Positions 3,402 to 42,727 of a stretch of DNA of 47,550 nt are shown here, one piece after another. A program made the position numbers and the translations under genes. This DNA comes from Streptomyces exfoliatus (lineage in GTDB: Bacteria; Actinomycetota; Actinomycetes; Streptomycetales; Streptomycetaceae): NCBI RefSeq assembly GCF_000725545.1, contig NZ_JNZP01000050.1, forward strand, positions 1-47,550. Reading direction: 5' to 3'. Within the stretch, counting starts at the first letter, position 1. Each line of letters starts with the position of its first letter. The notes under the pieces are model-generated. The model searched no databases, was not told the origin of the DNA, and saw nothing but the letters and a program-made list of their open reading frames with translations.

Positions 3402-3575
3402 CTACAGGTCGGCGAGGCCGAAGACGGCGGCGACGTACAGGGCGCCGAACGCGCAGGCGACCGTCAGGGGGATGCCGAGGCGGGGGTGGCGCCAGACGAG
3501 GTAGCCGGGCACGGCCAGGACGAGCAGGCCGACGGTGGGCACGAGCAGCAGGACCAGGAACGTGGTCGTGGACAT
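3402..3575 (-). CDS. Small two-helix membrane protein
   Basis: A 57-residue protein with two hydrophobic helices: residues about 4-24 (TFLVLLLVPTVGLLVLAVPG) and about 34-55 (LTVACAFGALYVAAVFGLA), joined by a short basic loop (VWRHPR). The ATG at 3575 has an excellent ribosome binding site (GAGGGGG, six bases upstream), so I prefer it to longer starts. It stands alone between the decayed gene and the IS element. The function is not recognisable; many actinomycetes carry such orphan membrane peptides. Confidence 0.7.
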   Translation of the reverse strand: MSTTTFLVLLLVPTVGLLVLAVPGYLVWRHPRLGIPLTVACAFGALYVAAVFGLADL

Positions 3576-6597: not shown

Positions 6598-6813
6598 CTT
6601 ATCGAGTGCTGGCTAAGTCCTTATTTTTGATAGCCTGCAGGACAGATGCTGGTCGAGGACGACAACTCGCAGGCTGAGCCTGGACTCTGACAACCCGGCG
6701 GCTGTTTCCGCCGGTGCGTGTGAGCCGTGGTCCGGGCCGTCCAGGACGGTCGGAGCAGGGACTCGCCGCAGTCCGGGGGGGCTGGGAGGTGTCGTGGAAT
6801 CCGGGGGAAGAAC

Positions 6814-8820
6814 ATGTTCGAACAGACCACTGCAGCGTCCGCGCACAGCGGTGCCATTCTCCCCTCGCCGCGTCCCGCGCCGGGGACGACCGTGGGGAGG
6901 GTGGCGTGCGCGGCGTCGGGCAGGGTGGGTGAGCTCGCGGCCCGCGTCGGTGATCCGGCGTTCTTGAGGCAGTGCGCGGTCCGGTACACGGCTGCCGGGT
7001 TCGGGGTGCCGGGCGAGGCGGAGGTGCGCAGCTGGCGCAACAGCTGGCCGCCTCTGCTGCGGGCGCTGGTGCGGGCGGGGTTATCGGACCTGTGGGTGTA
7101 TCTGGAGTACGGCACGCCGGGTGGTGGCCGGCGCCTGGACGCGCTGCTGGTCGGTACCAAGGCGGACGGGGCGCTGGGGCTGGTGGTCGTGGAGCTGAAG
7201 CAGTGGCAGTCCTGCCGGGTTCTCGACGCCGGGCGGGTCCTGCGCACAGACGGGGTGGTGACGGCCCATCCGGTGTTTCAGGTCGCGGCCTACCGGAGCT
7301 TCTTCCGGCACTGGCGGCCCGCCGGGGCGCCGAGGCTGGATGTGCGGGCGGTGGTAGTGCTGCATAACGCCAGCGCCGAAGAGGCGGCTGTCCTGCGCCT
7401 CGGTGCTCCCGCCGTCGCCGATATCCCCGTCCTGAGCGGTGCGGACCTGTCCGCACCAGCGGAGGACCTGGCTGCATTGTTGCGGGCCGGGGGCCTGGCC
7501 GCGCCGGACGCCGCCCGAAGAGCGGCCTTCGAGGGCATCCGGTGGGAGCCCTCCAGCAGGCTGCTCGACCACGTCGGTTCCGTCCTGGAAGGCAACAGCG
7601 CCTTCGCCCTGGTGGGCGACCAGCAGGACGCGTTCCTGCAGATCCGCGCGACCGCGGCGCTCCACCTGCCCGGCCGCGGCGGGAGTACGGCACCCGGCGA
7701 CGGGACGGGTGCGGTCATCACCGTGCGCGGTGGGCCGGGCAGCGGCAAGACAGCGCTCGCCGTGCGGCTGCTGGGCCACCTCATGCGCCAGCACCCCACG
7801 ACCCGCCCCCGCTTCATCACCCCGTCCGGGACCCTGCGCGCCCACCTCCTGGACGCCGTGAGCGGTCACAGCGCCGCCCGTGAACTGTTCCCCGGCATCG
7901 GTTACCTGCGGGCCGCCGCACGGCAAGCCGGCGCGCTCGTCATCGACGAGGCACAGCGGATCAAGCGCGGCGCCCACGGGCTGCCGCCGGACCTGGCCGC
8001 CGTGATCGAACACGTCCCGCTCGCCGTCGTCTTCCTCGACGAACGCCAGATCATCCGCCCCGACGAAGGCACCACCGTCGAAGAGATCCACGCCGCCGCC
8101 GGGCACCTGGGCCGCGCCCACCACCACCTGGAGCTCACCGGCTCGTTCCGCTGCGCCGGATCAGCCGCCTACACCGCCTGGGTCGACGCCCTGCTCTACG
8201 GCACGCCCCGCCCCTGGAAGGGCCACACCGGCTACGACCTGGGGCTCGCTGATGACCCCTTCCACCTGCAGCAGTGGATCGAACAGGCCACGGCCGCCGG
8301 GCACACCGCCCGCACCACCGCCGGATTCTGCTGGCCCTGGACCCGCAGCCGCCCCCGCGGCGCCACCACCCTCCCCCTCGACATCACCATCGACGTCCCC
8401 AGCACCAGCCCCGCCGCCCCGGACCGGACCTGGCACGCGGCCTGGAACGCCGCATCCGCCCTCACCCACCCCGACGACGGCCGCCCCCTCGCCCCCCACA
8501 ACCAGCTCTGGGCCACCCACACCGGCGGACACCAACAGATCGGCTGCATCTACACCGCACAAGGCCTCGAATACCGCGACGCAGGCGTCATCATCGGCCC
8601 CGACCTCACCTGGAACAACGACCACTGGGAAGCCCACCCCCACCACAGCCACGACGAAACCCTCCGCTACCTGCCCCCCGACCAATACCTGCGCTACGCC
8701 CTCAACACCTACCGCGTCCTACTCACCCGCGGCACCCACACCACCCGCATCCACTCCACCCACCCCACCACCCAACACATGCTCCACACCCTCATCCACC
8801 CCACCACCCCAGCCGACTGA
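6814..8820 (+). CDS. PD-(D/E)XK nuclease / DUF2075 helicase fusion (Schlafen-like ATPase)
   Basis: A 668-residue protein. The N-terminal third looks like a PD-(D/E)XK nuclease: D109 in RRLDALLVG and the E-x-K of VVVELKQW (E127, K129). From residue 300 comes a superfamily-1-like ATPase of the DUF2075 kind, with Walker A GGPGSGKT (306-313), Walker B ALVIDEAQR (about 374-382), a SFRCAGS motif, and C-terminal IYTAQGLEYRDAGVI and YRVLLTRG motifs. The ATG at 6814 is preceded by GGGGGAAG. Such nuclease-helicase fusions are associated with defence and stress functions; its exact role is unknown. Codons in the last third become extremely C-rich (runs of CAC, ACC and CCC). It is divergent from the DUF3883 gene. 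Confidence 0.82.
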   Translation: MFEQTTAASAHSGAILPSPRPAPGTTVGRVACAASGRVGELAARVGDPAFLRQCAVRYTAAGFGVPGEAEVRSWRNSWPPLLRALVRAGLSDLWVYLEYGTPGGGRRLDALLVGTKADGALGLVVVELKQWQSCRVLDAGRVLRTDGVVTAHPVFQVAAYRSFFRHWRPAGAPRLDVRAVVVLHNASAEEAAVLRLGAPAVADIPVLSGADLSAPAEDLAALLRAGGLAAPDAARRAAFEGIRWEPSSRLLDHVGSVLEGNSAFALVGDQQDAFLQIRATAALHLPGRGGSTAPGDGTGAVITVRGGPGSGKTALAVRLLGHLMRQHPTTRPRFITPSGTLRAHLLDAVSGHSAARELFPGIGYLRAAARQAGALVIDEAQRIKRGAHGLPPDLAAVIEHVPLAVVFLDERQIIRPDEGTTVEEIHAAAGHLGRAHHHLELTGSFRCAGSAAYTAWVDALLYGTPRPWKGHTGYDLGLADDPFHLQQWIEQATAAGHTARTTAGFCWPWTRSRPRGATTLPLDITIDVPSTSPAAPDRTWHAAWNAASALTHPDDGRPLAPHNQLWATHTGGHQQIGCIYTAQGLEYRDAGVIIGPDLTWNNDHWEAHPHHSHDETLRYLPPDQYLRYALNTYRVLLTRGTHTTRIHSTHPTTQHMLHTLIHPTTPAD

Positions 8821-8932: not shown

Positions 8933-9697
8933 ATGGACGCAGCAGAATGGATCGCCGCCGGCTCCGCCGGGGTGGCGGTGCTCGCGGCAGGCTTCAGCTG
9001 GCGGCAGGTCAGGCATGCCAACGGCCAGGTGCTGGCGGCCCAGGAGCAGGTCGTCGTGGCCCGGCGCAAACTGGAGCACGCGCAGAAGGTGCACCGGGAA
9101 CAGAACGAGCCGTACGTCATCGTCGACATCCAGCCCGCCGGCGGCCCCAGACGGGGTCTTCTTCTGCTCATCGTCGAGAACATCGGCTCCACGGTTGCCC
9201 GCAACGTGCGGATCACCGCCGATCCCCCGCTCGAATCGGCTCTGGGAGCCGAGTACACCACGCGTCTGCAGCGTGCCCTGGAGCGCACCTTCCCCATGAT
9301 TCCGCCAGGGCGCCGGCTCGAGTACACCTTCGACGGACCGATGCGGTGGGAAAACACCGAGCTGCCCACCGCGTACACCTTCACAGTCCGCTGCGAGGGG
9401 CCCTTCGGCCGGATGGAGGAGCAGCAGTACGCCGTCGACTTCGGCACCTGGGTGGAAACGCTGCTCCCTCCGCTGCCCCTAAAGCAGATGGAGGACAACC
9501 TGGAAAAGATCCGCAGGGAGCTGAAGAGCATGGTCGGCGTCTTCGAGAAGAGTCACGCGCCTGCCATCCGGGAGGAGAACGAGCACGCCATGCAGCAGCA
9601 CCGCGAGCGCGCGGCAGCCCGAACGGCACGACAGAACCAGGCCGCAGAGGCCGAAGCCGCAGGCGAAGGACCAAGCGAGAAGGCTGCGGGCAGCTAA
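8933..9697 (+). CDS. Membrane-anchored protein of unknown function
   Basis: A 254-residue protein with one N-terminal hydrophobic segment (about 5-20, WIAAGSAGVAVLAAGFSW). A short helical stretch follows (NGQVLAAQEQVVVARRKLEHAQKVHREQNEP). A beta-rich domain (about 60-180, YVIVDIQPAGG, LLLIVENIGSTVARNVRI, TFDGPMRWENTELPTAYTF) resembles proteins that read IENxGxTPAxNVRV. The tail is charged and probably coiled coil. No ribosome binding site is visible before the ATG, and a -10-like TACCGT lies just upstream, so the mRNA may be leaderless. It follows the helicase by about 110 bases on the same strand and may be functionally linked. Function unknown. Confidence 0.75.
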   Translation: MDAAEWIAAGSAGVAVLAAGFSWRQVRHANGQVLAAQEQVVVARRKLEHAQKVHREQNEPYVIVDIQPAGGPRRGLLLLIVENIGSTVARNVRITADPPLESALGAEYTTRLQRALERTFPMIPPGRRLEYTFDGPMRWENTELPTAYTFTVRCEGPFGRMEEQQYAVDFGTWVETLLPPLPLKQMEDNLEKIRRELKSMVGVFEKSHAPAIREENEHAMQQHRERAAARTARQNQAAEAEAAGEGPSEKAAGS

Positions 9698-32402: not shown

Positions 32403-33089
32403 TCACGCGTTGTTGGAGTTCTCCTGTTCCCAGGCCTGGATGATCTCGATAGGGATGCGCCCGCGTTCAGGTAGGTCGTAGCCGTGGGCGTGGGCCCAGT
32501 CGCGGATGGTGCGTGTGCTGACGGATGTCCGGGGGGCTGCAACCGGTGTGTTGCTATGGAGAGCTGAAGGGGTGAAGGTGGCCCCGTGTTCAAGGAGGTC
32601 CTTGGGGAACATGGGGATGTGTGTTGTTCCGCTGAGAGTGGCGACGAGGAATTCGGTCAAGGACCCGTCGTAGATGTACCAGGGGGCGCGCAAGGCTTCG
32701 TTGACGGCGACGGTCCACTCGTCCGGGGTGCCAGCGGGCTGGGTGACCCAGAAGAGGTAGTCCCCGTTGCCCGTGACTCCCATGGCGAAGAGATCCTCGG
32801 GAGGGTGCGGCAATGCCCAGGGGTGTCGGGCAGTTTGTCGGACCTCTTCGATCTGCGTTCGTAGACGGGCCGGCATGGGCCCGGTCAGGTCGGCCCACTC
32901 GCTGGGGGCGTGAGGCTGGTACAGGGAGATGAAGTCGCAGAACTGGCCCGGGCCGTAGGTGGTGACGAGTTGCTTGTAGTCCTGGGGCAGGTTCATGCCC
33001 AGTGCAGCCTCGATCCGGGACCAGTCAGGGGCTGGCGGGACGGTAGGGGGAGGTGGGCACAGGGCCGTCAGTGCTGTGAGGGCAGTCAT
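32403..33089 (-). CDS. SUKH (SMI1/KNR4) immunity protein with Lsr2-type C-terminus
   Basis: A 228-residue protein. Residues about 20-150 match the SUKH/SMI1 fold: DWSRIEAALGMNLPQDYKQL and VTTYGPGQFCDFISLYQP at the start, then GDYLFWVTQPAGTPDEWTVA and a late segment with TEFLVATLSG. The last 40 residues (TRTIRDWAHAHGYDLPERGR, then IPIEIIQAWEQ) match the C-terminal DNA-binding domain of Lsr2, including its R-G-R motif (209-211). AAGGAATCGG precedes the ATG. It starts 15 bases after the RHS toxin fragment's stop, the standard place for an immunity gene. It probably binds and neutralises the nuclease tip. Confidence 0.82.
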   Translation of the reverse strand: MTALTALTALCPPPPTVPPAPDWSRIEAALGMNLPQDYKQLVTTYGPGQFCDFISLYQPHAPSEWADLTGPMPARLRTQIEEVRQTARHPWALPHPPEDLFAMGVTGNGDYLFWVTQPAGTPDEWTVAVNEALRAPWYIYDGSLTEFLVATLSGTTHIPMFPKDLLEHGATFTPSALHSNTPVAAPRTSVSTRTIRDWAHAHGYDLPERGRIPIEIIQAWEQENSNNA

Positions 33090-33104
33090 CCGATTCCTTG
33101 GAGG

Positions 33105-33989
33105 CTAAGGACGGCGCCGGGGGCGGGGCTCGTCGTGAGCAGGGTTGTTAAGGATGGTCCCCTCATCGAACAGGAGGTTGCCGTCCCGGTCCTTTTTGGC
33201 TCCGAACGCCTCGAGCTGGATGGTCTTGGGGGGTGAGTCAGGATCATCGTTTACGTACTCCAGGTACACGCTGTACTGGACGACGTCGTTTCCGGCGACA
33301 GCGTCGTACACACGCTGCTCGAACATGCTCATTTCTGGCGTGTTCGTCGGGTTCTGGGAGATCGTGAACAGGTTGTCGTCATGATCACCGGATCCGCCGA
33401 GCTGCCGCGCCAGCATGTGCCCGCGGGCCTGTCCCTTGTCCGGCTGGTAGCCAGGAGGGATGATCGAGTTACGGGCGTGTGTGCCTTCATCAAGCATGTT
33501 GCGGGTGATGATGGCGTGCATCTCATAGGGACGTCCGTGCTCGTCGCGAACCCACCTGACTTGCCCCGCCCATGTGGGATCCGGCTCGCAGGCTGCCAGG
33601 CCCAGGGGGTCAGCCAGAATGAACGGGTTCGCGACATAGGCGTAGGGGTTGATCGACGGAGCGATGCCCAATGGGTCGGGCGAGAGGTACCTGCCCGCTT
33701 CGGGGTCGTAGTAGCGGTTGAAGTTGTAGTGCAGACCCGTCTCGGGGTCGAAGTACTGGCCCGGGTAGCGCAGCGGGGTATAGGCGGTGCTGTTCTTGTT
33801 CCACTGGGTGGCGCCCCAAGCGGTGCTGCGGGCTCGCCAGGCCAGGGACCCGTCGGCCGAGACCATTTCCGTGGGGCTGCCCACGAGGTCGGTGACGATC
33901 GCGAAGAACCGGCGATCGACCTCCTGCTGTGTGCCGCCGGCCTTCATTTCACGCTGGCTCAGGGGTTTTAGTCCGGCGTAGTCCCACAC
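33105..33989 (-). pseudogene. RHS toxin C-terminal part with Endonuclease_NS_2-like tip (out of frame)
   Basis: The last RHS repeats and the conserved core boundary are present (RYPGQYFDPETGLHYNFNRY and YDPEAGRYLSPDPLGI, then AYVANPFILADPLGL). A toxin tip follows, with KGQARGHMLARQLGGSGDHD, NLFTISQNPTNTPEMSMFEQ and RVYDAVAG. The GH and N residues fit the DNA/RNA non-specific endonuclease (NUC1/Endonuclease_NS_2) family. The same frame remains open upstream to about 34095 (NDEQVTQTTTFRWDGAQLVE), but the main protein is in another frame, so the tip is not joined to it. Confidence 0.8.
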
Positions 33990-33999
33990 CAGGGTCGCG

Positions 34000-36900
34000 T
34001 CATCGTCCTGCTGCTCGACCAGCTGTGCGCCATCCCAGCGGAAGGTCGTGGTCTGTGTGACTTGCTCGTCGTTCTGACCTACGCCAGCGATCCCCCTCAG
34101 GTGTCTGGACCTGGGTGAGTCGATCTTCCGCGTCCCACTGGAAGTGCCAGGTCAGAGTCGTGCCGCTGAGTGTCTTGGTCCGGCGGAGTGTGAGGCGGCC
34201 CTGCTCGTCGTAGCTGTAGCGCGTGCGCCCTGCCCGGACCAGGCGAGCGCCCTCGTATTGCCGGTCTCCGACGGCTGATTGGCCCGGTGCCTGGGCTGGA
34301 AGGGCTGTGCGGCTCTGGTCACCAGCAGCGTTGTAGGCGTACCGCTCCGTCCAGCCACGCGCCTGGACCTCTCGCACGCGACTGGCTGCATCCAGCAAGA
34401 ACGTGCGGCGCCCCGCCAGGCTGTCCTCGATACTCGTAGGCACGCCGTCGGCCTGGTAAGTAAAGCTACGGCGTAGCAGGGGCTCACTGGTGTTGCCCAG
34501 GGTCATGTGGGTGAGACGGCCAACGGGGTCCCAGTCCTGCCGCATCTCCAGGGCGTCATCAACGAAGCGTGCGGTCTCGCGGCCGAGCGCGTCTCGTTCG
34601 AACCGGAAAGCGCGCTCCCCCACTGTGTAAGACGCCAGGCCGCTCGCCGTGTACTCCAGCAGGCTTTCGGCGCCGGAGGGCGTGCGCCTGCCGACGCGGC
34701 GCCCGAGGGCATCGTAGGTGAAGGACATAGTGGCGCCGTTGACGGTCTCGGCAACGATGCGACCTGAGAGGTCTCTCTCCAGCTGGATGCGGGAATGTGC
34801 GTTCGTGATCTGCGCGACGTGCCCGCTCTCGTCGTGAGTGAACTGCGAGACCGAACCATCGTCGTGCGTGATGTGGGTGACGCGGCCGAGGATGTCACGG
34901 TCGAAACTGATGCTCTGGCCGGCAGCGTTCGTCCGCCGGACGATGAATCCGAGTGGATCGCGCTCGTACGTCAGTGTGCGGCCGTCGAAGTCTTGCTCCG
35001 CGACGAGCCTGCCTGCAGCGTCGTAGATGTATTCCCACACCAGGCCTTCGGCGTTGGTGACCGCTGTCAGCCGCAGCTCCGTGTCATGGGTGAAGTGATA
35101 GTCGCTGTGCTCACCTGTCTGGGTGCTCAGCAGCAGGTCAAAGTGGCCGGAGGAGTGAGTGGTGGTGCGGCCCATGCGGTCGGTGTGTGAAACGAGGTTG
35201 CCCTCGCCGTCCCATGTCCATTCCTCGCGGCTGCCGTCCGGCATTTCGCGCCAGATGAGTTTCCCTTCGACGCTCCAGCCCTGCTGCACGACGCCACCCA
35301 GAGCGTCGACGACCTTGGTGACACGTCCGAAGGCGTCACGTGTGCATGAGGCGGTCGTCCCGTCAGGCCGCGTGACCTGTACCTGGAGGCCGGCGGCATT
35401 GGTCGTATAGCGGGTGGAGGCCCCCAACGCATCCTGGACGAGACACAGGTGCCCGCGGGGATTGAACACGTACTCGGTGCGGGCTCCGGCCGGGTCCACG
35501 GACCCGGTGAGGTTGCCGCGTTCGTCGTAGTCGTAGCGGCGAGAGATTCCGGCGCGTTCGGTGATCACCTCAGGCAGGTGCAGCTTGCTGTAGGTGGCGG
35601 TGGTCCGCACGCCGTCCGGCGCGACAAGACCGGTGAGATTGCCGTGCTCATCCCGCTCAAAGCGGGTGGAACGGTCAAGCGCGTCTGTCTGGACGAGCAG
35701 CCGGTCGTGGGCATCGAACTCGAACCGCGTGGCGTGTCCCAGGGGGTCGATCTGGCTGGTGACCTGGAGACGGCTGTTGAGGACGTATGTCGTCGTCGCG
35801 TCCTGCGAGTTCGTGTAGTGGGTGATCCGGTCGCCGGTTTCCGGGTGGACGTTGTACGAGAACGTCGACGAGAGGTAGCCGTCGGGGCCGATCGTGCGGA
35901 CCACTCGCCCCTCGGTGTCGTAGACATACTGGAACGTCGAGTCGTTGCGGTCGGTCCAGGAAGTGATCCGGCCTTCCGGGCTGTAGGTGAAGCGCAGCGG
36001 CAGACCGGAGGAGTTGGTGACCTCGGCTAGGTTGCCCAAGTCGTCGTACGCGTACCGCATGACGGTGACAGGGCCATCGTCGGTGCGCAGGGAAAGTTCA
36101 CTGATGCGGGTGTCTTCGGCCGTGAGCTGGACGGTGTAGCCGCCGTTGTGAGTAACCGCGGTCGGGGTTCCGTCCGGGCGCCGGGAGAAGGTGAGCCGAT
36201 TGTGGTTTCTATCGGTCAGGCTGGTCAGCCAGTAAGCGGGAGAGGCACGGTAGGGGCTGCCGGTGAAGGAGCGGGTCACTCCGGTGTGAAGGTCGGTTGC
36301 CGTGTAGGTGGTCTCGTCCTCGCTCTGGCCGCCGTAGACCAAGGCAATTCGTGGGCCCTCCACGGGCAGGACCGCGGTGCCGTCCGGTAGGGGGAGACTG
36401 GGATAGACCAGGGTGGAACCGTCCTCGCGTGCCCAGATCGCCCCGGCTCCGGGCACGTCGGTTTCGAGGCGTTCATCGAAGGTGGAGGTCCAGCTGCGGC
36501 CGAAGAAGTGGCCGAAGCGGTACTCGGAGAGATGGGTGCGGCGAAGGACGAGGGGAAGGACTCCCGGAAGGGACAGGTCGGTCTGGGGGAGGGTCATCTC
36601 ACCCGTTGCTACATCGACAGGGTCGTTGGCGCACTTCTTCTTCGTGAGCTCGATCCCGTGCCGGCGCGGGTCGGATTTCACGCCACGGAGCGAATCAGGC
36701 TTCAGGTACGCGTCTCCGCGCCTGCCACTGCGATCGCCAGGATTCTTCCCCCTGTTCCGCTCGTCGTCTCCGCCCTTGCGTTGCCGGGCGATACGGGCAG
36801 CGGTGTCGTCGTCGTTGTTCTTGTGGTCGACGGAGATCTGCTTGACGACCCTCGGCAGCGTCTTGCCGACGTGGTCGCCCATCGTGTTGGCAGACTTCAC

Positions 36901-37803
36901 CAGGGCGCCCATGGCCTTCTCGATGGCCGGGTCCAGGGCGTCGGCGATGCTGTCCCGGCCCTTGTTGCGTCCCTGAGCCGTCTTCGCCTTCGCCAGTTTC
37001 CCGGCGGTCTTGCCATGGATGCCGACGCTCACACTGTTCAGTTTCGTACCGGCGTTGGCGTGCTCGTCGTGCTCGATGTGGAAGCCCTTGCCTCCGGGCG
37101 ACCGTCGCCCGCCATTTCCGGTGTCGGCCGAGGCGAGGTTCAGGCCCTCCTTGGCGCCCTGCACACCTTCGTCGAAGGCGTCCTTGCCTGCTTGCCTGGT
37201 CTGGCCGAGGTCTACACCGTTCTGGACGCCCAAGGCGTCCATGCTGACCTGGACCACCAGGTCCGCGGCCATGTTCTCCAGCGCCGCCACGGCCGGCTCG
37301 GTCATCACACCGACGATGTGACCGACCGCCTCTTCCATCGCGCCCGTGATGAACTTCAGCAGTTGCTTCTTCGTGTAGGCGATCGCACCGGCACCCAGCA
37401 GCGCGGACAGACCACCGGTCACCGGGATCAGTGCCATGGCCAGACCTGTCTGGCCGGCCAGGATGCCGAGCTCGGCGACCGCTTTCCACTTCATGCCCTC
37501 GATCGCACCCGCCGCCATGTCCAGCGCGTCCGCGATGGTCCGGGCCGCGGACACCATGTCCTTCAGGTGCTTGCCCTTGACCTTGCCCCAGTGCTCGTTC
37601 AGCGCGTCCATCGCCTCGCCGTGACCCGACGACAGCAAACGCTCCATGTGGTTGTTGGCGAGCTGCCCGTCGTCGGCGAGGTCGTCCGCGAACTCCCGCA
37701 GCGCGTCCGCCATCTCCCGGTAGGCGTCCTCGTCCACGTTGGGCCAGTTCACCCCCACGAGGTCCAGCAGCGTGTCCGCCCAGTCCGGCACCGTGACAGC
37801 CAT
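34000..37803 (-). CDS. WXG-type RHS polymorphic toxin, N-terminal part
   Basis: A 1267-residue protein. Residues about 1-220 have a helical WXG100/type-VII-like leader (VPDWADTLLDLVGVNWPNVD, LSSGHGEAMDALNEHWGKVK) and a hydrophobic segment (LAMALIPVTGGLSALLGAGA). A DUF6531-type segment (CANDPVDVATGEMTLPQTDL) follows, then dozens of RHS/YD repeats (FTYSPEGRITSWTDRNDS, YVYDTEGRVVRTIGPDGYLS, RYDYDERGNLTGSVDPAG). Near 34110 a probable 35-45-base deletion joins GDRWR to the wrong frame and it ends at TGA 34000. The ATG has GGGGGAT upstream. It is exported, and dead unless rescued by frameshifting. Confidence 0.85.
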   Translation of the reverse strand: MAVTVPDWADTLLDLVGVNWPNVDEDAYREMADALREFADDLADDGQLANNHMERLLSSGHGEAMDALNEHWGKVKGKHLKDMVSAARTIADALDMAAGAIEGMKWKAVAELGILAGQTGLAMALIPVTGGLSALLGAGAIAYTKKQLLKFITGAMEEAVGHIVGVMTEPAVAALENMAADLVVQVSMDALGVQNGVDLGQTRQAGKDAFDEGVQGAKEGLNLASADTGNGGRRSPGGKGFHIEHDEHANAGTKLNSVSVGIHGKTAGKLAKAKTAQGRNKGRDSIADALDPAIEKAMGALVKSANTMGDHVGKTLPRVVKQISVDHKNNDDDTAARIARQRKGGDDERNRGKNPGDRSGRRGDAYLKPDSLRGVKSDPRRHGIELTKKKCANDPVDVATGEMTLPQTDLSLPGVLPLVLRRTHLSEYRFGHFFGRSWTSTFDERLETDVPGAGAIWAREDGSTLVYPSLPLPDGTAVLPVEGPRIALVYGGQSEDETTYTATDLHTGVTRSFTGSPYRASPAYWLTSLTDRNHNRLTFSRRPDGTPTAVTHNGGYTVQLTAEDTRISELSLRTDDGPVTVMRYAYDDLGNLAEVTNSSGLPLRFTYSPEGRITSWTDRNDSTFQYVYDTEGRVVRTIGPDGYLSSTFSYNVHPETGDRITHYTNSQDATTTYVLNSRLQVTSQIDPLGHATRFEFDAHDRLLVQTDALDRSTRFERDEHGNLTGLVAPDGVRTTATYSKLHLPEVITERAGISRRYDYDERGNLTGSVDPAGARTEYVFNPRGHLCLVQDALGASTRYTTNAAGLQVQVTRPDGTTASCTRDAFGRVTKVVDALGGVVQQGWSVEGKLIWREMPDGSREEWTWDGEGNLVSHTDRMGRTTTHSSGHFDLLLSTQTGEHSDYHFTHDTELRLTAVTNAEGLVWEYIYDAAGRLVAEQDFDGRTLTYERDPLGFIVRRTNAAGQSISFDRDILGRVTHITHDDGSVSQFTHDESGHVAQITNAHSRIQLERDLSGRIVAETVNGATMSFTYDALGRRVGRRTPSGAESLLEYTASGLASYTVGERAFRFERDALGRETARFVDDALEMRQDWDPVGRLTHMTLGNTSEPLLRRSFTYQADGVPTSIEDSLAGRRTFLLDAASRVREVQARGWTERYAYNAAGDQSRTALPAQAPGQSAVGDRQYEGARLVRAGRTRYSYDEQGRLTLRRTKTLSGTTLTWHFQWDAEDRLTQVQTPEGDRWRRSERRASHTDHDLPLGWRTAGRAAGR

Positions 37804-38717: not shown

Positions 38718-39098
38718 CTATGCGGGCAGCGTGGCGGTGGCCGGGCCGCGCTGGGATCGAGGGGTCTTGGTGCCGGGGTGGCGGGGCTCGATGGTGCGGG
38801 GGTCGACGGCTTCTCCGGGGGCGCCTTCTCTGTAGACGCCGTCGGGGTCGCTGTCCCGGTCGTGCGGGAGCAGGAAGAAGACTCGCCGCTTGTACAGGCC
38901 GCTGTCAGGGTCGGACTCGGCGGTGCCGGCGAGGAGCGCGTAGCCGATCATGCGGCCGTCACGGAGGTAGGGCGGTCGTGTGTTGCGCCGCCTGGTCTTG
39001 TCGAGGGCTTGTCGGACGTAGTCAAGCTTGTCCGTGTCCTCCAGCCAGACCACGTCTGCTTCGTGGATGAGATCGCTTTCGGTCAACAGCGAACTCAT
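38718..39098 (-). CDS. Small coupled protein downstream of the replication helicase
   Basis: A 126-residue protein starting MSSLLTESDLIHEADVVWLE. It is soluble, with a mixed charged helix (DYVRQALDKTRRRNTRPPYL) and a strand-rich middle (IGYALLAGTAESDPDSGLYK, RRVFFLLPHDRDSDPDGVY). Its ATG overlaps the stop of the helicase gene by four bases (ATGA), so translation is coupled. The family is not recognised; position suggests an accessory replication or plasmid maintenance protein. Confidence 0.68.
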   Translation of the reverse strand: MSSLLTESDLIHEADVVWLEDTDKLDYVRQALDKTRRRNTRPPYLRDGRMIGYALLAGTAESDPDSGLYKRRVFFLLPHDRDSDPDGVYREGAPGEAVDPRTIEPRHPGTKTPRSQRGPATATLPA

Positions 39099-40777
39099 GG
39101 CTGCAGCCCTTCTTCAGTCGGGTTCGCGGGGCCGACGGCCTGGCGCGGGGAGTGGGTGGTCTGGACGGGTGTAACCGAACGGGGTCCCGGTTTTTCATCG
39201 TACGGGGACCCGGGTGTGGGGTGAAGTGCGCCGCCTGCTGAGGGGGTGGGGGCGGGGTCGGGGGTGTCGGTCAGCAGGGCGAGGCCGGGGTAGTACTTGC
39301 GGCCGTTGGACTTGATCATGTCGGCAGGTGAGGCGAGGCCGGCCTCCTGCCGGACGCGGGTGGCGAAGGCGCGTGGGGTGGCCGGGCGGATTCCTTCGCC
39401 GGCGAGACACCAGGAGCTGTACTCGGTGTACAGGAGGCCCTGCTCGACGCGGAGTTCCCCGGGGTCGTCGGCTCTGGTGCAGCATTCGGTGAGGAAGCGC
39501 CCGATGTGGTCTTCGGTGGTGGCGTAGGCGCTGGTGGCCAGGCGTACGCGGCCGGGGCCTTCGAGGGGGTCTCGGGTGGCGAGGTAGCGGCGGGCTCCTT
39601 CGATGAGCCAGTGGAGGATGCCGGGGCCTTCGTCGCGGACGAGTTCGGAGGCGAGGTTGTCGATGCGCCGTCGTTCGGAGACGGTGCGGGTGAAGGGGAT
39701 CAGCCGGATGCGGCGCCAGAAGGCGAAGCCTCCGGTGGTGACCTCAGGCCGGTGGTTACCGAGGAGCCAGAGGTGATGGGTGGGGGCGAAGGAGAAGTAG
39801 TCCTGCCTCATGCGCCGCGCCTTGATCTTGTCTCCGCCGGTGAGGAGACGGACCCGCGCTTCGTCGAACTTGTCGTTGGGTTTGAGTTCGGAGCAGACGA
39901 TCAGGCGGCGGCCATGGAGTTCGGTGAGCTCGGTGGAGTGCTCGCTGAAGGCTCCGCGGTCCATGAGGAAGCCGGGCGGAGCGGCATCTGCGTAGTCCCC
40001 GAGGATCTGGATCATGGTGTCGAGCAGGACGCTCTTGCCGTTCTTGCCCTCGCCGTGGAGAAAGGGCAGTACCTGGGCGCCGACGTCTCCGGTGATGGAG
40101 TAGCCGAGCAGCAGGTGCAGGAAGTCGATCATCTCCCGGCCCTCGGCGTCGTCTCCGAAGGTGTCGGTGAGGAACAGTTGCCATCGGGGGGCGTCCATGG
40201 GGAGCGGGGCGACGGCGGTGGCGCGGGAGTGGAAGTCGTTCTTCGGGTCGGCCTTGTGCATCTGGCCGGTGCGGAGATCGACGACTCCGGAAGGCGTGCA
40301 CAGGGCGTAGGGGTCGCCGTCGAGGGTGTCGGGGTCCACGGACATGTCGGGTGAGGCCTTCGCCTGGATGAGGAGGGCCTTCATGCCGGTGGTCGACAGG
40401 GTGCGCTTCTTGTGGTGGGCGAGTTCTCTGTTGCTGTGGATGCCGCGCGGGTCTGTGTCGGCCATGTCCTCGGCCATTTCGCCGGCTGCCCACAGGGCCG
40501 CCTTCTCGCCGCCGACACGCTTCCAGCGGTAGCCGTCCCAGGAGTGCCAGCCCAGGCCCTCGACGTGACGGAACTGGTCACGGTAGAGCTGCACGAACAG
40601 GCGGGCGTTGCCCCGGTCGGTGAGCGAGGGAGGCAGCAGCGCAGGCGTGCCCCAGGCCGCGGGGGCGGCGGCGCTTTGGGCCGGAAGCGTGACCGCAGGG
40701 TCGGCCGGGGTGAGGGCGAGCATCTGTTGGGCGGCGGCGTCCGCGTCGAAGCGAGGCATGTCTTCGGCCCTGCTCAT
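39095..40777 (-). CDS. Phage/plasmid primase-associated SF3 helicase (P4-type, DUF5906)
   Basis: A 560-residue protein. Residues about 60-200 carry a D5_N-like region (HVEGLGWHSWDGYRWKRVGG, CTPSGVVDLRTGQMHKADPK). From 205 comes a superfamily-3 AAA+ helicase with Walker A HGEGKNGKS (241-249), Walker B in RRLIVCSELKPNDKFDEARV, LLTGGDKIKARRMRQDYFSF (sensor/motif C region) and HHLWLLGNHRPEV. A C-terminal winged-helix-like part follows (CCTRADDPGELRVEQGLLYT, EYSSWCLAGEGIRPATPRAF). It starts with ATG overlapping the primase stop and probably unwinds the element's replication origin. Confidence 0.88.
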   Translation of the reverse strand: MSRAEDMPRFDADAAAQQMLALTPADPAVTLPAQSAAAPAAWGTPALLPPSLTDRGNARLFVQLYRDQFRHVEGLGWHSWDGYRWKRVGGEKAALWAAGEMAEDMADTDPRGIHSNRELAHHKKRTLSTTGMKALLIQAKASPDMSVDPDTLDGDPYALCTPSGVVDLRTGQMHKADPKNDFHSRATAVAPLPMDAPRWQLFLTDTFGDDAEGREMIDFLHLLLGYSITGDVGAQVLPFLHGEGKNGKSVLLDTMIQILGDYADAAPPGFLMDRGAFSEHSTELTELHGRRLIVCSELKPNDKFDEARVRLLTGGDKIKARRMRQDYFSFAPTHHLWLLGNHRPEVTTGGFAFWRRIRLIPFTRTVSERRRIDNLASELVRDEGPGILHWLIEGARRYLATRDPLEGPGRVRLATSAYATTEDHIGRFLTECCTRADDPGELRVEQGLLYTEYSSWCLAGEGIRPATPRAFATRVRQEAGLASPADMIKSNGRKYYPGLALLTDTPDPAPTPSAGGALHPTPGSPYDEKPGPRSVTPVQTTHSPRQAVGPANPTEEGLQP

Positions 40778-41850
40778 GATCGTCCTTCGGGGTGGAGCGG
40801 CCGCCTGGCACCAGCGGCCAGGCCGTCGTCGATGATCTGCATGTTGCGGCGGGAGTTCCCGGGGCGGGCTCGGTCCGCTATCTCCTGGAGCTGGTCTCGG
40901 ACGGTTTCGTTGTCGAGGTGGCCTGCTGCTGCCAGACCGCCCGCGGTGTAGGCGGCACGGTTGAGCTTCTCGGTGAAGGACATGCCCTCCTGCGCGACCG
41001 CGCAGTGGGCGACCTCACTCAGCAGGGGCTCCAGGAGTCGGCGGGCGCCTACTGCTCTGCGTCGGCGCGGCGCCTGGAGCGGGGCAGGTTGACTGCGGGG
41101 TTCGGCAGGGCGGATGAGGTGTCCGGTCCGGGTCAGTTCGCCCTTCAGCCAGTCCGGTAGCGGGGCAGGCAGCCGGCTCGGTCCCTGGGCCTCGTAACGC
41201 CCGTCTGGGGTCTGGGTGGTGGGGGCGACGATGTAGCCGCCTTCGGCGCGCACGTCGACCTGCCAGGCAAGGGCCACCTTAGGGCTGGAGCCTGTCGAGC
41301 AGCGGAACTTCGTTGTCGGGTCGGGGTTCCGGTACCAGATGTGGAGCCCGCCTGACGGGGTACGTACCCGCAGCGTGGTGGCGTCTTCGGCCGGGTTCTG
41401 CTGTCCCCGGTAAGCAGCAAGGAGCGCGAGAGTGTCGAAGCCCGAGGCCAGACCTGCCAGGTCGACCGATTCGTGGATGGCGATGCCCGGCAGGAGGCGG
41501 CTTCTGTCCGGAACTTTGGCGGAGTGCGCGTCGACGTCGATGACCACCAGGTCCGCCGGACCGCAGGCGACACCGACTCCCGCACCCGGGGCAGCCCCCC
41601 ACCAGGCATCCACCAGGAGGGGGTCCGTCGTCGCTGAGTGGAAACCGTGGCAGGGCCGGCCTTCCGCCGGACACCGGCAGGTCTTCGGGTCGTGACTCCG
41701 TGCCTGGCACGCTTTGCAGTTGGCGGTGGGCGTTTTGCGTCCGGGCGCCAAAGGATGGACCGGCCAGCCCTGCTCGGCGCACCAGCGCGCGACAGCGTGC
41801 GGAGTGCCGCGCCTGGGCCGGGCAGGCCGGGGAACTGCGAGGCTCCGCAC
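40774..41850 (-). CDS. Bifunctional DNA primase/polymerase (prim-pol)
   Basis: A 358-residue protein. The archaeo-eukaryotic-type prim-pol domain is clear: an N-terminal helix ARWCAEQGWPVHPLAPGRKT, a cysteine/histidine cluster (CKACQARSHDPKTCRC, PCHGFH), the catalytic D105-x-D107 in LVVIDVDAH, a later TLRVRTPSGGLHIWYRN and DVRAEGGYIVAPTT. A helical C-terminal part (LLEPLLSEVAHCAVAQEG, NRAAYTAGGLAAAGHLDNET) resembles the PriCT region. GTG 41850 is preceded by AAGGAAAAGGACC. It is the first gene after the candidate origin and is coupled to the helicase. It probably primes replication of the element. Confidence 0.85.
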   Translation of the reverse strand: MRSLAVPRPARPRRGTPHAVARWCAEQGWPVHPLAPGRKTPTANCKACQARSHDPKTCRCPAEGRPCHGFHSATTDPLLVDAWWGAAPGAGVGVACGPADLVVIDVDAHSAKVPDRSRLLPGIAIHESVDLAGLASGFDTLALLAAYRGQQNPAEDATTLRVRTPSGGLHIWYRNPDPTTKFRCSTGSSPKVALAWQVDVRAEGGYIVAPTTQTPDGRYEAQGPSRLPAPLPDWLKGELTRTGHLIRPAEPRSQPAPLQAPRRRRAVGARRLLEPLLSEVAHCAVAQEGMSFTEKLNRAAYTAGGLAAAGHLDNETVRDQLQEIADRARPGNSRRNMQIIDDGLAAGARRPLHPEGRS

Positions 41851-41909
41851 TCGGATGGTCCTTTTCCTTCAGGGTCGACGCCGGTCCCATTCAGGCCTCG
41901 TTCTCCACA

Positions 41910-42403
41910 GGGACTGAGGGACCGAAGGGACTCTGATCCGGAAGTGTAGAACGGATCTCTCCCCGATCTGGCAGGAGCCACGCACACCGTGATGTCGTTT
42001 CGGGTTCTCGGTCCCTTGGGTCCCTTCCAGCGCCAAGCCAGCCCACGTTGCGCTCCGGGCTCGCGGACGGAGCTGAAGGCGCAGGACTTCGACCTCCGCG
42101 GGCCGGAATGTCCGGAGGGACCGAGCGAGAGTGACCTCAAGGACGTTCAGAGACTTTGAACCCCTGAACGTTTTGCCTGGTCAGAAGGGCTGCATGCCCT
42201 TCGCAAGGGACTGAAGGGACTGAATTCTCTAGTTATGGGCTAGTTAGAGGTCCTTGTTGTATGCGCGCGTGCATGTATGAACAGTGTCGTGAGTACACGT
42301 CATAACTAGAGATTTGAGTCCCTTGAGTCCCTGAGATCAGGGGTGCACATGCCCTGACCAGGTAAAACTCTCAGGGACTGAGCGAAGGGACGATGCAGGG
42401 ACT
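41910..42403. repeat. GGGACYGA iterons (candidate origin region)
   Basis: Copies of GGGACTGA/GGGACCGA occur singly and in pairs about 10-11 bases apart. They are at 41910-41933 (three copies), 42009-42026 (two, inverted), 42117-42125, 42207-42222 (two), 42317-42332 (two, inverted) and 42374-42403 (three). The 10-11-base spacing puts them on the same face of the helix, as in Rep-binding iterons. The repeats start 60 bases upstream of the prim-pol gene. Confidence 0.65.
42162..42376. other. Candidate replication origin: 76-bp inverted repeat around a 63-base centre
   Basis: Left arm 42162-42237 and right arm 42301-42376 are reverse complements at about 55 of 76 positions. The inner 32 bases match at 29 (CTCTAGTTATG adjoining the centre) and the outer 23 at 20 (CCTGGTCAG); the middle is diverged. 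Equal arm length suggests strong selection or a recent duplication. The 63-base centre is relatively AT-rich (CTAGTTAGAGGTCCTTGTTG). A perfect ACGTTCAG/CTGAACGT repeat lies just left. It looks like an origin or an operator-rich control region for the replication operon. Confidence 0.6.
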
Positions 42404-42727
42404 CGGGCCACTCAGGCCCTGAGGCCCTACCCCGGTCGGCAAGTTGCTCGCCCAGGGGCCAGGGCCTTCGTCGGCGGATTCCAGGCAGAAGGCGTAGGCC
42501 CCTCGACTCGTTGCTATACCTCTGGTCCGACGGCCGGGAGCCGAGTGGGGAGCCAAGTGAGGTGCTTCGCGAGCAGCTTCTGCCACGGTGCTCAAGGCGC
42601 GCGCGGCGCCGGCGAACCAGCCGGTGAGACATCTGGAGCGCCGGGCCACCGGCCCTGGCGACAGGGCAGCGCGGCGGCTACCCGGGCAGCCGCCGTATGG
42701 CAGCTTAGGACCAACCTGCGAATGTCA
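42404..42727. other. No supported gene
   Basis: The stretch between the candidate origin and the next minus-strand gene has only short shadow frames. I see no regulatory motif beyond the iterons that end at 42403. Confidence 0.35.

Follow-up and report, generated by a model that had tools for sequence, protein, structure and literature searches.

The stretch of DNA considered in this study, referred to as the window, is the 47,550 nucleotides of Streptomyces exfoliatus at positions 1 to 47,550 of contig NZ_JNZP01000050.1 (GCF_000725545.1). Its minus strand carries an operon of three genes, in the order prim-pol, P4-type helicase and DUF6009, with an array of short repeats upstream (Table 1). 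The start codon of prim-pol may lie somewhat downstream of 41850, since annotated relatives start slightly later than the aligned start.

The helicase scores 258 bits against TIGR01613 (cut-off 108.7), which places it in the P4 family. At E values up to 0.1, the C-terminus matches Pox_D5 in all 34 members of helicase set A3 (best 1.7e-7), though the window's own helicase, at E 0.011 and 16.6 bits, falls below the curated cut-off of 21.4; 14 of the 34 match the RFX winged-helix family (best 2.8e-4). The AlphaFold2 model of the C-terminus (pLDDT 77.7) has its elements in winged-helix order, with the predicted recognition helix at helicase residues 468-479. A sequence search of PDB with the winged-helix profile gave nothing significant, the best match being RFX5 (E 0.21); prim-pol had no relative there, and the helicase had weak matches to viral primase. 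No operon protein matches a Toprim family, the primase being the separate PF09250 gene. DUF6009, a candidate third replication protein, follows the helicase in nine of nine annotated modules and is nowhere named in the open-licence literature searched. Its model (pLDDT 68.8) is made mostly of strands and is not a winged helix; a classical DNA-binding fold was considered for it and dropped, the model being of low confidence and unconvincing.

Table 1. Features of the replication module and its upstream array in the window.
Feature	Position	Strand	Remarks
DUF6009 gene, third of the operon	38718..39098	-	PF19472, E 1.4e-62
P4-type SF3 helicase gene, C-terminal winged helix	39095..40777	-	D5_N, TIGR01613
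Winged-helix domain, helicase residues 412-510	39248..39544	-	candidate iteron reader
Prim-pol gene	40774..41850	-	PF09250, Pfam E 1.5e-36
Proximal iteron pair, promoter-near side	41909..41925	+	two units with one-base overlap
TACACT, -10-like hexamer	41943..41948	-	between proximal iterons
Proximal iteron pair, far side	42008..42025	-	convergent
Single iteron	42116..42124	+	
Reported inverted repeat, the distal (origin-like) core	42162..42376	none	55/76 paired; A-type conservation
Outer block CCTGGTCAG	42176..42184	+	CAGGTCAGAG in many relatives
Tandem iterons AGGGACTGA x2, left side of distal core	42206..42223	+	
AT-rich spacer between convergent iterons	42224..42314	none	candidate unwinding region
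Inner box CTAGTTATG	42229..42237	+	exact inverted match to 42301-42309
Perfectly alternating purine-pyrimidine tract, 22 nt	42258..42279	none	Z-DNA-prone sequence type
Inner box, inverted copy	42301..42309	-	
Tandem iterons AGGGACTCA x2, right side of distal core	42315..42332	-	convergent
Outer block, inverted copy	42354..42362	-	
Single iteron, right edge of array	42373..42381	+	

Next to the replication module in the window is a polymorphic-toxin-like cluster (32403-37803). Its members are an RHS protein (34000-37803) whose N-terminus is WXG100-like, a separate open reading frame downstream of the RHS gene that combines RHS with DNA/RNA non-specific endonuclease domains (33105-33989), and an open reading frame of SMI1/KNR4 (SUKH) type (32403-33089). 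A further open reading frame (6727-8820) has a Schlafen group 3 helicase domain (PF09848, E 3.8e-56) and is possibly a defence gene. An Rfam scan of the window gave no match at gathering scores, and a tRNA search found none.

The first-pass annotation of this DNA reported an inverted repeat upstream of prim-pol, and its arms (42162-42237 and 42301-42376), 63-base centre and pairing at 55 of 76 positions are all as it described them. When every spacing was scanned, the highest score of any ungapped inverted repeat of 76 bases within 41851-42600 was 55, as against 33-39 paired of 76 in 20 dinucleotide-preserving shuffles of the 750-bp region, a comparison in which the shuffles were sampled at every third spacing and the real sequence at all of them. 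The conserved blocks that had been noticed are present and can now be named: each arm contains two tandem 9-bp iterons together with a CTAGTTATG box on the inner side and a CCTGGTCAG block on the outer side. As for the diverged middle, it too is there, as an unpaired spacer. Moreover, the feature extends beyond the repeat. The iteron unit is the 9-bp sequence AGGGACYSA, and 10 of its 11 exact occurrences in the 47.5-kb window fall within 41909-42381. These ten units, spanning 473 bp upstream of prim-pol, form the arrangement of tandem short repeats beside a replication gene by which iteron origins are recognized; they are disposed in two facing pairs, distal and proximal, with single units at 42116 and 42373.

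To what extent is this arrangement shared? A protein search of the named genomes found 39 related loci. Prim-pol matches with E no higher than 0.001 appear in 149 of 199 Streptomyces genomes, a good part of these matches being weak, and relatives of prim-pol appear on 348 of 72,556 records in the plasmid collection (332 of them Streptomyces), with a best identity of 60-80% in 158 records and lower in 190. None of the 50,697 records in the phage collection has one. The exact tandem iteron AGGGACYSAAGGGACYSA occurs 85 times, in 33 of 198 Streptomyces genomes, compared to four matches in the same genomes for a reversed control pattern. Of the 85, 70 are upstream of a prim-pol place at a distance of no more than 1.2 kb (chance about 0.004); the 69 places used are the stronger among the matches listed, with weaker ones dropped. 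The first-pass annotation had staked its reading on a conserved association with prim-pol genes, and that association exists. The remaining 15 tandem iterons comprise three at 3.3-3.4 kb past a prim-pol start, two at 2.6-2.9 kb upstream and ten elsewhere.

The 107 prim-pol matches were reduced to 88 modules with distinct upstream DNA, some of them near-identical (L004 and L073, for example). I will refer to these modules by the type of their iterons: type A (AGGGACYSA), with 53 modules including that of the window; type B (AGCGACYSA), with 28; and type C (CGGGACYSA), with four. Three modules are untyped. Within 900 bp upstream, exact B units are found in two of the 53 A modules (one unit in each) and exact A units in none of the 28 B modules. 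A distal core, for which the facing pair was allowed at most 2 mismatches in 18, occurs in 53/53 A modules (that of the window among them), 23/28 B, 2/4 C and 0/3 untyped. Four of the five B modules without a distal core (L034, L038, L074 and L087) have their array downstream of DUF6009, the fifth being L009. As for the untyped modules, L020 is a chimera, to be considered below, L078 has B sites downstream, and the prim-pol match of L065 lacks the first 56 residues, tandem iterons lying 2.6-2.9 kb upstream in its genome.

Across genomes, the B tandem pattern occurs in at least 59 of the 198 genomes, several matches lying far from any listed prim-pol, and the A pattern in 12 of 101 genomes (5 of 17 genera) of a family-wide sample. 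Five of the six clusters of at least three sites on three complete plasmids are at modules. Long tandem runs of 9-bp units are also found away from listed prim-pol genes, at G169:C21 (type A) and at G007:C1 and G185:C32 (type B), the last a run of seven overlapping B-unit matches.

Exact cores were located in 42 of the 53 A modules and 22 of the 28 B modules. The statistics of spacing, tract and arms draw on all 22 of the latter and 29 of the former, the other 13 A cores being left out because the proximal pair had been picked instead. In the window, the 92-mer 42224-42315 is 56.5% AT, compared to 32.8% for the window overall, and a fraction of 4.2e-5 of the window's 92-mers are equally AT-rich; the array thus has, adjoining its iterons, the AT-rich region typical of iteron-type (theta) origins. 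In all 51 loci, the spacer has a longest alternating run that is longer than the mean from 200 shuffles of that same spacer. Spacings between facing pairs cluster at 76-80, 86-90 and 100 in type B and at 109-115, 124 and 135-138 in type A. Helical phasing of the facing pairs was tried as an explanation and rejected, a period of 10.5 fitting A and B jointly poorly (vector length 0.39, as compared to 0.80 for a period of 11.5). The outer block, which in the window reads CCTGGTCAG / CTGACCAGG outside the iterons, is found (as AGGTCA or a variant, mostly at one distance) in the left arm of 29/29 A and 20/22 B loci and in the right arm of 28/29 A and 15/22 B loci. Its occurrence in both types suggests that a common factor, or one of the host, may read it.

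The proximal pair has a conserved feature of its own. TACACT (17 loci) or TAGGCT (10) stands between the proximal iterons in 27 of the 30 A loci with an exact proximal pair, compared to 2.4% of shuffled spacers, although the 30 loci are kin and their counts are not independent. A sigma-70 consensus scan of the window gave no promoter, and the -10-like call rests instead on this conservation. To judge from the sequence, the proximal pair likely brackets the promoter of the rep operon, which would then be under iteron control.

The modules tend to come in twos. At least two prim-pol places are present in 48 of the best 60 of the 348 plasmid records (490 places in all 348), and in annotated examples a stretch of about 10-20 kb takes in parAB together with two prim-pol modules. 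Sixteen contigs among the loci compared have two modules: 12 combine A with B, three C with B and one A with an untyped module of the B clade, and none combines like with like. In the genome from which the window comes, the A module described here is accompanied by a B module, which is on a different short contig (C61). In a tree of prim-pol (83 of the 88 modules), the B clade of 27 rows is split off with support of 100/100 and the C clade with 100/97, while the split between A and C is weak. A tree of DUF6009 (52 rows) was set aside, contaminated as it was by genes of neighboring modules (identical rows). One A+B pair, L084 (G171:C1), lies at about 7.21-7.22 Mb of a chromosome-sized contig of 7.39 Mb, and its position some 170 kb from the contig end suggests a linear plasmid merged with a chromosome arm.

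Two modules mix the types, and they bear on the question of which protein reads the iterons. In L020, prim-pol is nested within the A rows of the tree and shares 82% identity with an A gene, the helicase and DUF6009 match B genes at 87% and 92% identity, and prim-pol and the helicase are separated by a B array. The second chimera, L114, is on the S. camelliae plasmid NZ_CP115301. It is arranged as in L020, with 81.6% identity over 88% of the junction, and has an A prim-pol, a complete B core, a B helicase and DUF6009, and remnants of an A helicase and an A DUF6009; the A distal core is gone, and A sites remain only near the prim-pol start. In both, prim-pol is 82-83% identical to A kin, helicase and DUF6009 are 85-92% identical to B kin, and the array is B. 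The two chimeras are related and therefore count as one event; a search of 392 genomes revealed no further chimera among the matches listed, beyond what appears to be the same plasmid. The record of L114 has a single prim-pol place. It also has, near parAB and the chimeric module, a gene (L114 1-90) annotated as RepL2, which belongs to a different type of linear-plasmid replicon; the plasmid may be a fusion of replicons, and its replication therefore need not depend on the chimera.

In these two related chimeras the iteron type follows helicase and DUF6009 rather than prim-pol, and a prim-pol could presumably serve an origin of the other type. Within the helicase, residue 477 (in the predicted recognition helix) is Q in 43/51 A and 3/4 C proteins and E in 19/19 B proteins and in both chimeras, while residue 464, just before the helix, is R in 51/51 A and 4/4 C proteins and different in at least 18 of 19 B proteins. 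This match of residue to type is a correlation along the tree, not a proof of contact. The sequences and the structural model together suggest that the iterons are probably read by the winged helix of the helicase. DUF6009 could be the binder instead, for it travels with the helicase in the chimeras, although its model is not a winged helix.

It is with considerable confidence that I take the segment for an iteron origin, that of a replicon of the prim-pol and P4-type helicase kind on a large Streptomyces plasmid. The first-pass annotation had spoken of an origin or its control site. Both terms would be preserved in the reading I favor, in which an SCP1-like plasmid replicon (set beside SCP1 by description) has here its origin together with its operator, in that a distal core and a proximal promoter pair both appear to be present. 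In such an origin, helicase monomers would bind the 9-bp iterons via the C-terminal winged helix, so that the two facing tandem pairs would hold complexes on either side of the AT-rich spacer of alternating purines and pyrimidines. The spacer between the facing pairs would melt, the helicase would load as hexamers, and the separately encoded prim-pol would prime the strands. Helicase on the proximal pair, bracketing the -10-like hexamer, would repress its own operon and in that way control initiation. Of all this, the sequences show directly the array, how well it is conserved, its association with the module and its division into types; activity as an origin, the identity of the binding protein, melting and autorepression are inferred.

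Some observations count against this reading. The window has no match to the ParA/ParB pair tested. GC skew in three complete plasmids has no clear turn at the modules; a local minimum close to them, near 25 kb, is confined to G107. Nor are the modules central: 16 of the best 60 plasmid records have the module in the central third, where chance would give 20, and 25 of those 60 have it within 20% of a plasmid end, at least one of these records being circular.

An alternative is that the array is solely an operator or incompatibility locus of the rep operon, through which Rep represses the operon or couples plasmids, with initiation taking place elsewhere. Plasmid iterons often serve also as control sites, and the bracketing of the -10-like hexamer by the proximal pair (27 of 30 by the strict count) points the same way. 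I nevertheless consider this unlikely. The distal core is 300-500 bp from the start of the gene and contains a stretch whose AT content is about the highest in the window; one B subclade has its array downstream of DUF6009; and L114 has lost its A distal core along with an intact A helicase while keeping the A sites near the prim-pol start.

A second alternative, that the array is a plasmid centromere (a parS array) bound by ParB, draws on the several relatives in which parAB adjoins the module and its array, yet is highly improbable. On the complete plasmid G107 the tested ParA/ParB pair has a single match, as against two arrays, which differ in type, and the type of an array follows its rep module. 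The window, a 47.5-kb contig, has no match to that ParA/ParB pair. Furthermore, L020 has another candidate for parS, a palindrome TTTACCGCGGTAAA that recurs with a regular spacing of 69 bp in or just after a parB-like match. The palindrome is found at 3461, 3530 and 3599 of L020 and at 8984, 9053, 10610 and 10665 of L092, and may constitute a candidate parS array partly inside a parB-like gene.

The first-pass annotation had supposed a structured origin, and one could imagine a hairpin or cruciform in which the folded stem itself is recognized, as in the archaeal plasmid pRN1, whose protein joins an archaeo-eukaryal primase, an SF3 helicase and a winged helix and whose origin includes a 100-nt stem-loop (PMC4234260, in the part available). 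I compared left arms to the right arms of their own locus (within) and to those of other loci (between), using 29 A and 22 B loci. In type A, the iterons pair at 0.95 within and 0.94 between, the spacer in the arm at 0.35 and 0.32 and the inner box at 0.50 and 0.43; in type B the values are 0.92 and 0.92, 0.35 and 0.32, and 0.50 and 0.50. Arms thus fit the arms of other loci nearly as well as their own, which argues that selection acts on sites and not on pairing. There is no covariation, the in-arm spacer of both groups lying near its between-locus value, and no stem of the pRN1 sort is maintained by pairing. The comparison speaks against the folded stem, which I find scarcely credible, and what had been called structure is better described as a symmetric array of sites. 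That the repeat is chance or decayed sequence without a role has a negligible probability, contradicted as it is by the genome-wide link to prim-pol, the shuffles and the conservation of the core.

I return, then, to the reading of the array as an iteron origin, and to the known systems it resembles. The first-pass annotation knew of no Streptomyces origin with such a structure, a claim that was too strong, since the origin of pWTY27 already has a long inverted repeat. The locus of pWTY27 consists of repA, repB and a non-coding iteron region with direct and inverted repeats, including IR2, a discontinuous inverted repeat of ca. 105 bp; RepA binds IR2, and the plasmid also works in linear form with telomeres (PMC3583192). 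Judging from the sections of that paper at hand, this is the nearest described origin found. What it shares with the present locus is a long inverted repeat, likewise discontinuous, next to a predicted DNA primase/polymerase gene (PMC3583192). The two differ in that the iterons of pWTY27 are of 7-8 bp and of another sequence (GTGGGAAC), its binder, RepA, is termed a hypothetical protein, the plasmid is 14 kb, and those sections describe no second orthogonal module.

In gene content there is a resemblance to the SCP1-like replicons that giant Streptomyces plasmids are described as having (PMC13152386). SCP1, pSCL4 and KVP1 have, according to the excerpts available, a replication protein and a plasmid primase/helicase, as recorded for KVP1 (PMC5331497), along with parAB, on large linear plasmids (PMC5331497, PMC13152386). 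Relatives of the present module likewise combine a replication protein and primase/helicase pair with parAB on large plasmids, the window being without parAB so far as the pair tested goes. The SCP1-like replicons differ in being described as central, which is not the pattern in the plasmid records examined here, and neither an iteron sequence nor twin modules are described for them in those excerpts; the comparison is one of description, not of sequence. The origin of this class may have been described in part in the 1999 SCP1 and 2006 pSCL2 origin papers.

More distant systems share components. The alpha protein of P4 binds origin repeats through the C-terminal winged helix of its helicase (as summarized in the part of PMC4234260 available), and the present protein is a P4-family helicase with a predicted C-terminal winged helix that may bind the origin; in P4, however, a Toprim-type primase is part of the same protein, whereas here prim-pol is a separate gene. 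The pRN1 system has the same three elements of archaeo-eukaryal primase, SF3 helicase and C-terminal winged helix (PMC4234260, same part), but fused in one protein and with a downstream stem-loop origin that has no iterons, as opposed to iterons, three genes and no conserved stem here. The Prim-Pol/RepPP modules of AICEs, such as SLP1, also place a Prim-Pol gene before a replication gene in mobile elements of actinomycetes, and one has a D5-type protein (PMC3218068, in its accessible portion). AICEs, though, are integrating elements with an integrase and an FtsK-type Tra, and neither integrase nor FtsK was found among the scanned open reading frames, which make up part of those in the window. 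The terms "iteron" and "inverted repeat" are absent from the text of the AICE paper (PMC3218068).

A long-inverted-repeat origin being already known, the new part is the twin arrays that differ by one base. The open-licence literature searched, in the portions available, has no description of twin modules with iterons of this sort. The wider proposition, on which the case seems to me evenly poised, is that large Streptomyces plasmids have two orthogonal origins working in parallel. These would be served by paralogous modules of prim-pol, helicase and DUF6009, with iterons that differ by one base (AGGGACYSA and AGCGACYSA, with CGGGACYSA as a third) and are laid out in similar geometry. The distinguishing base would be read by Q or E at helicase residue 477 together with neighbors such as 473 and 478, and the prim-pols would be interchangeable.

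Giant linear plasmids of Streptomyces carry antibiotic clusters, and their rep genes are annotated, but little was found concerning their origins at the level of sequence in the open-licence literature searched. The array provides an origin signature that can be searched for. The existence of twin types offers a possible reason why a plasmid can have two rep modules without cross-talk between them, and a natural pair of specificities one base apart makes the recognition of iterons by SF3 helicases directly testable.
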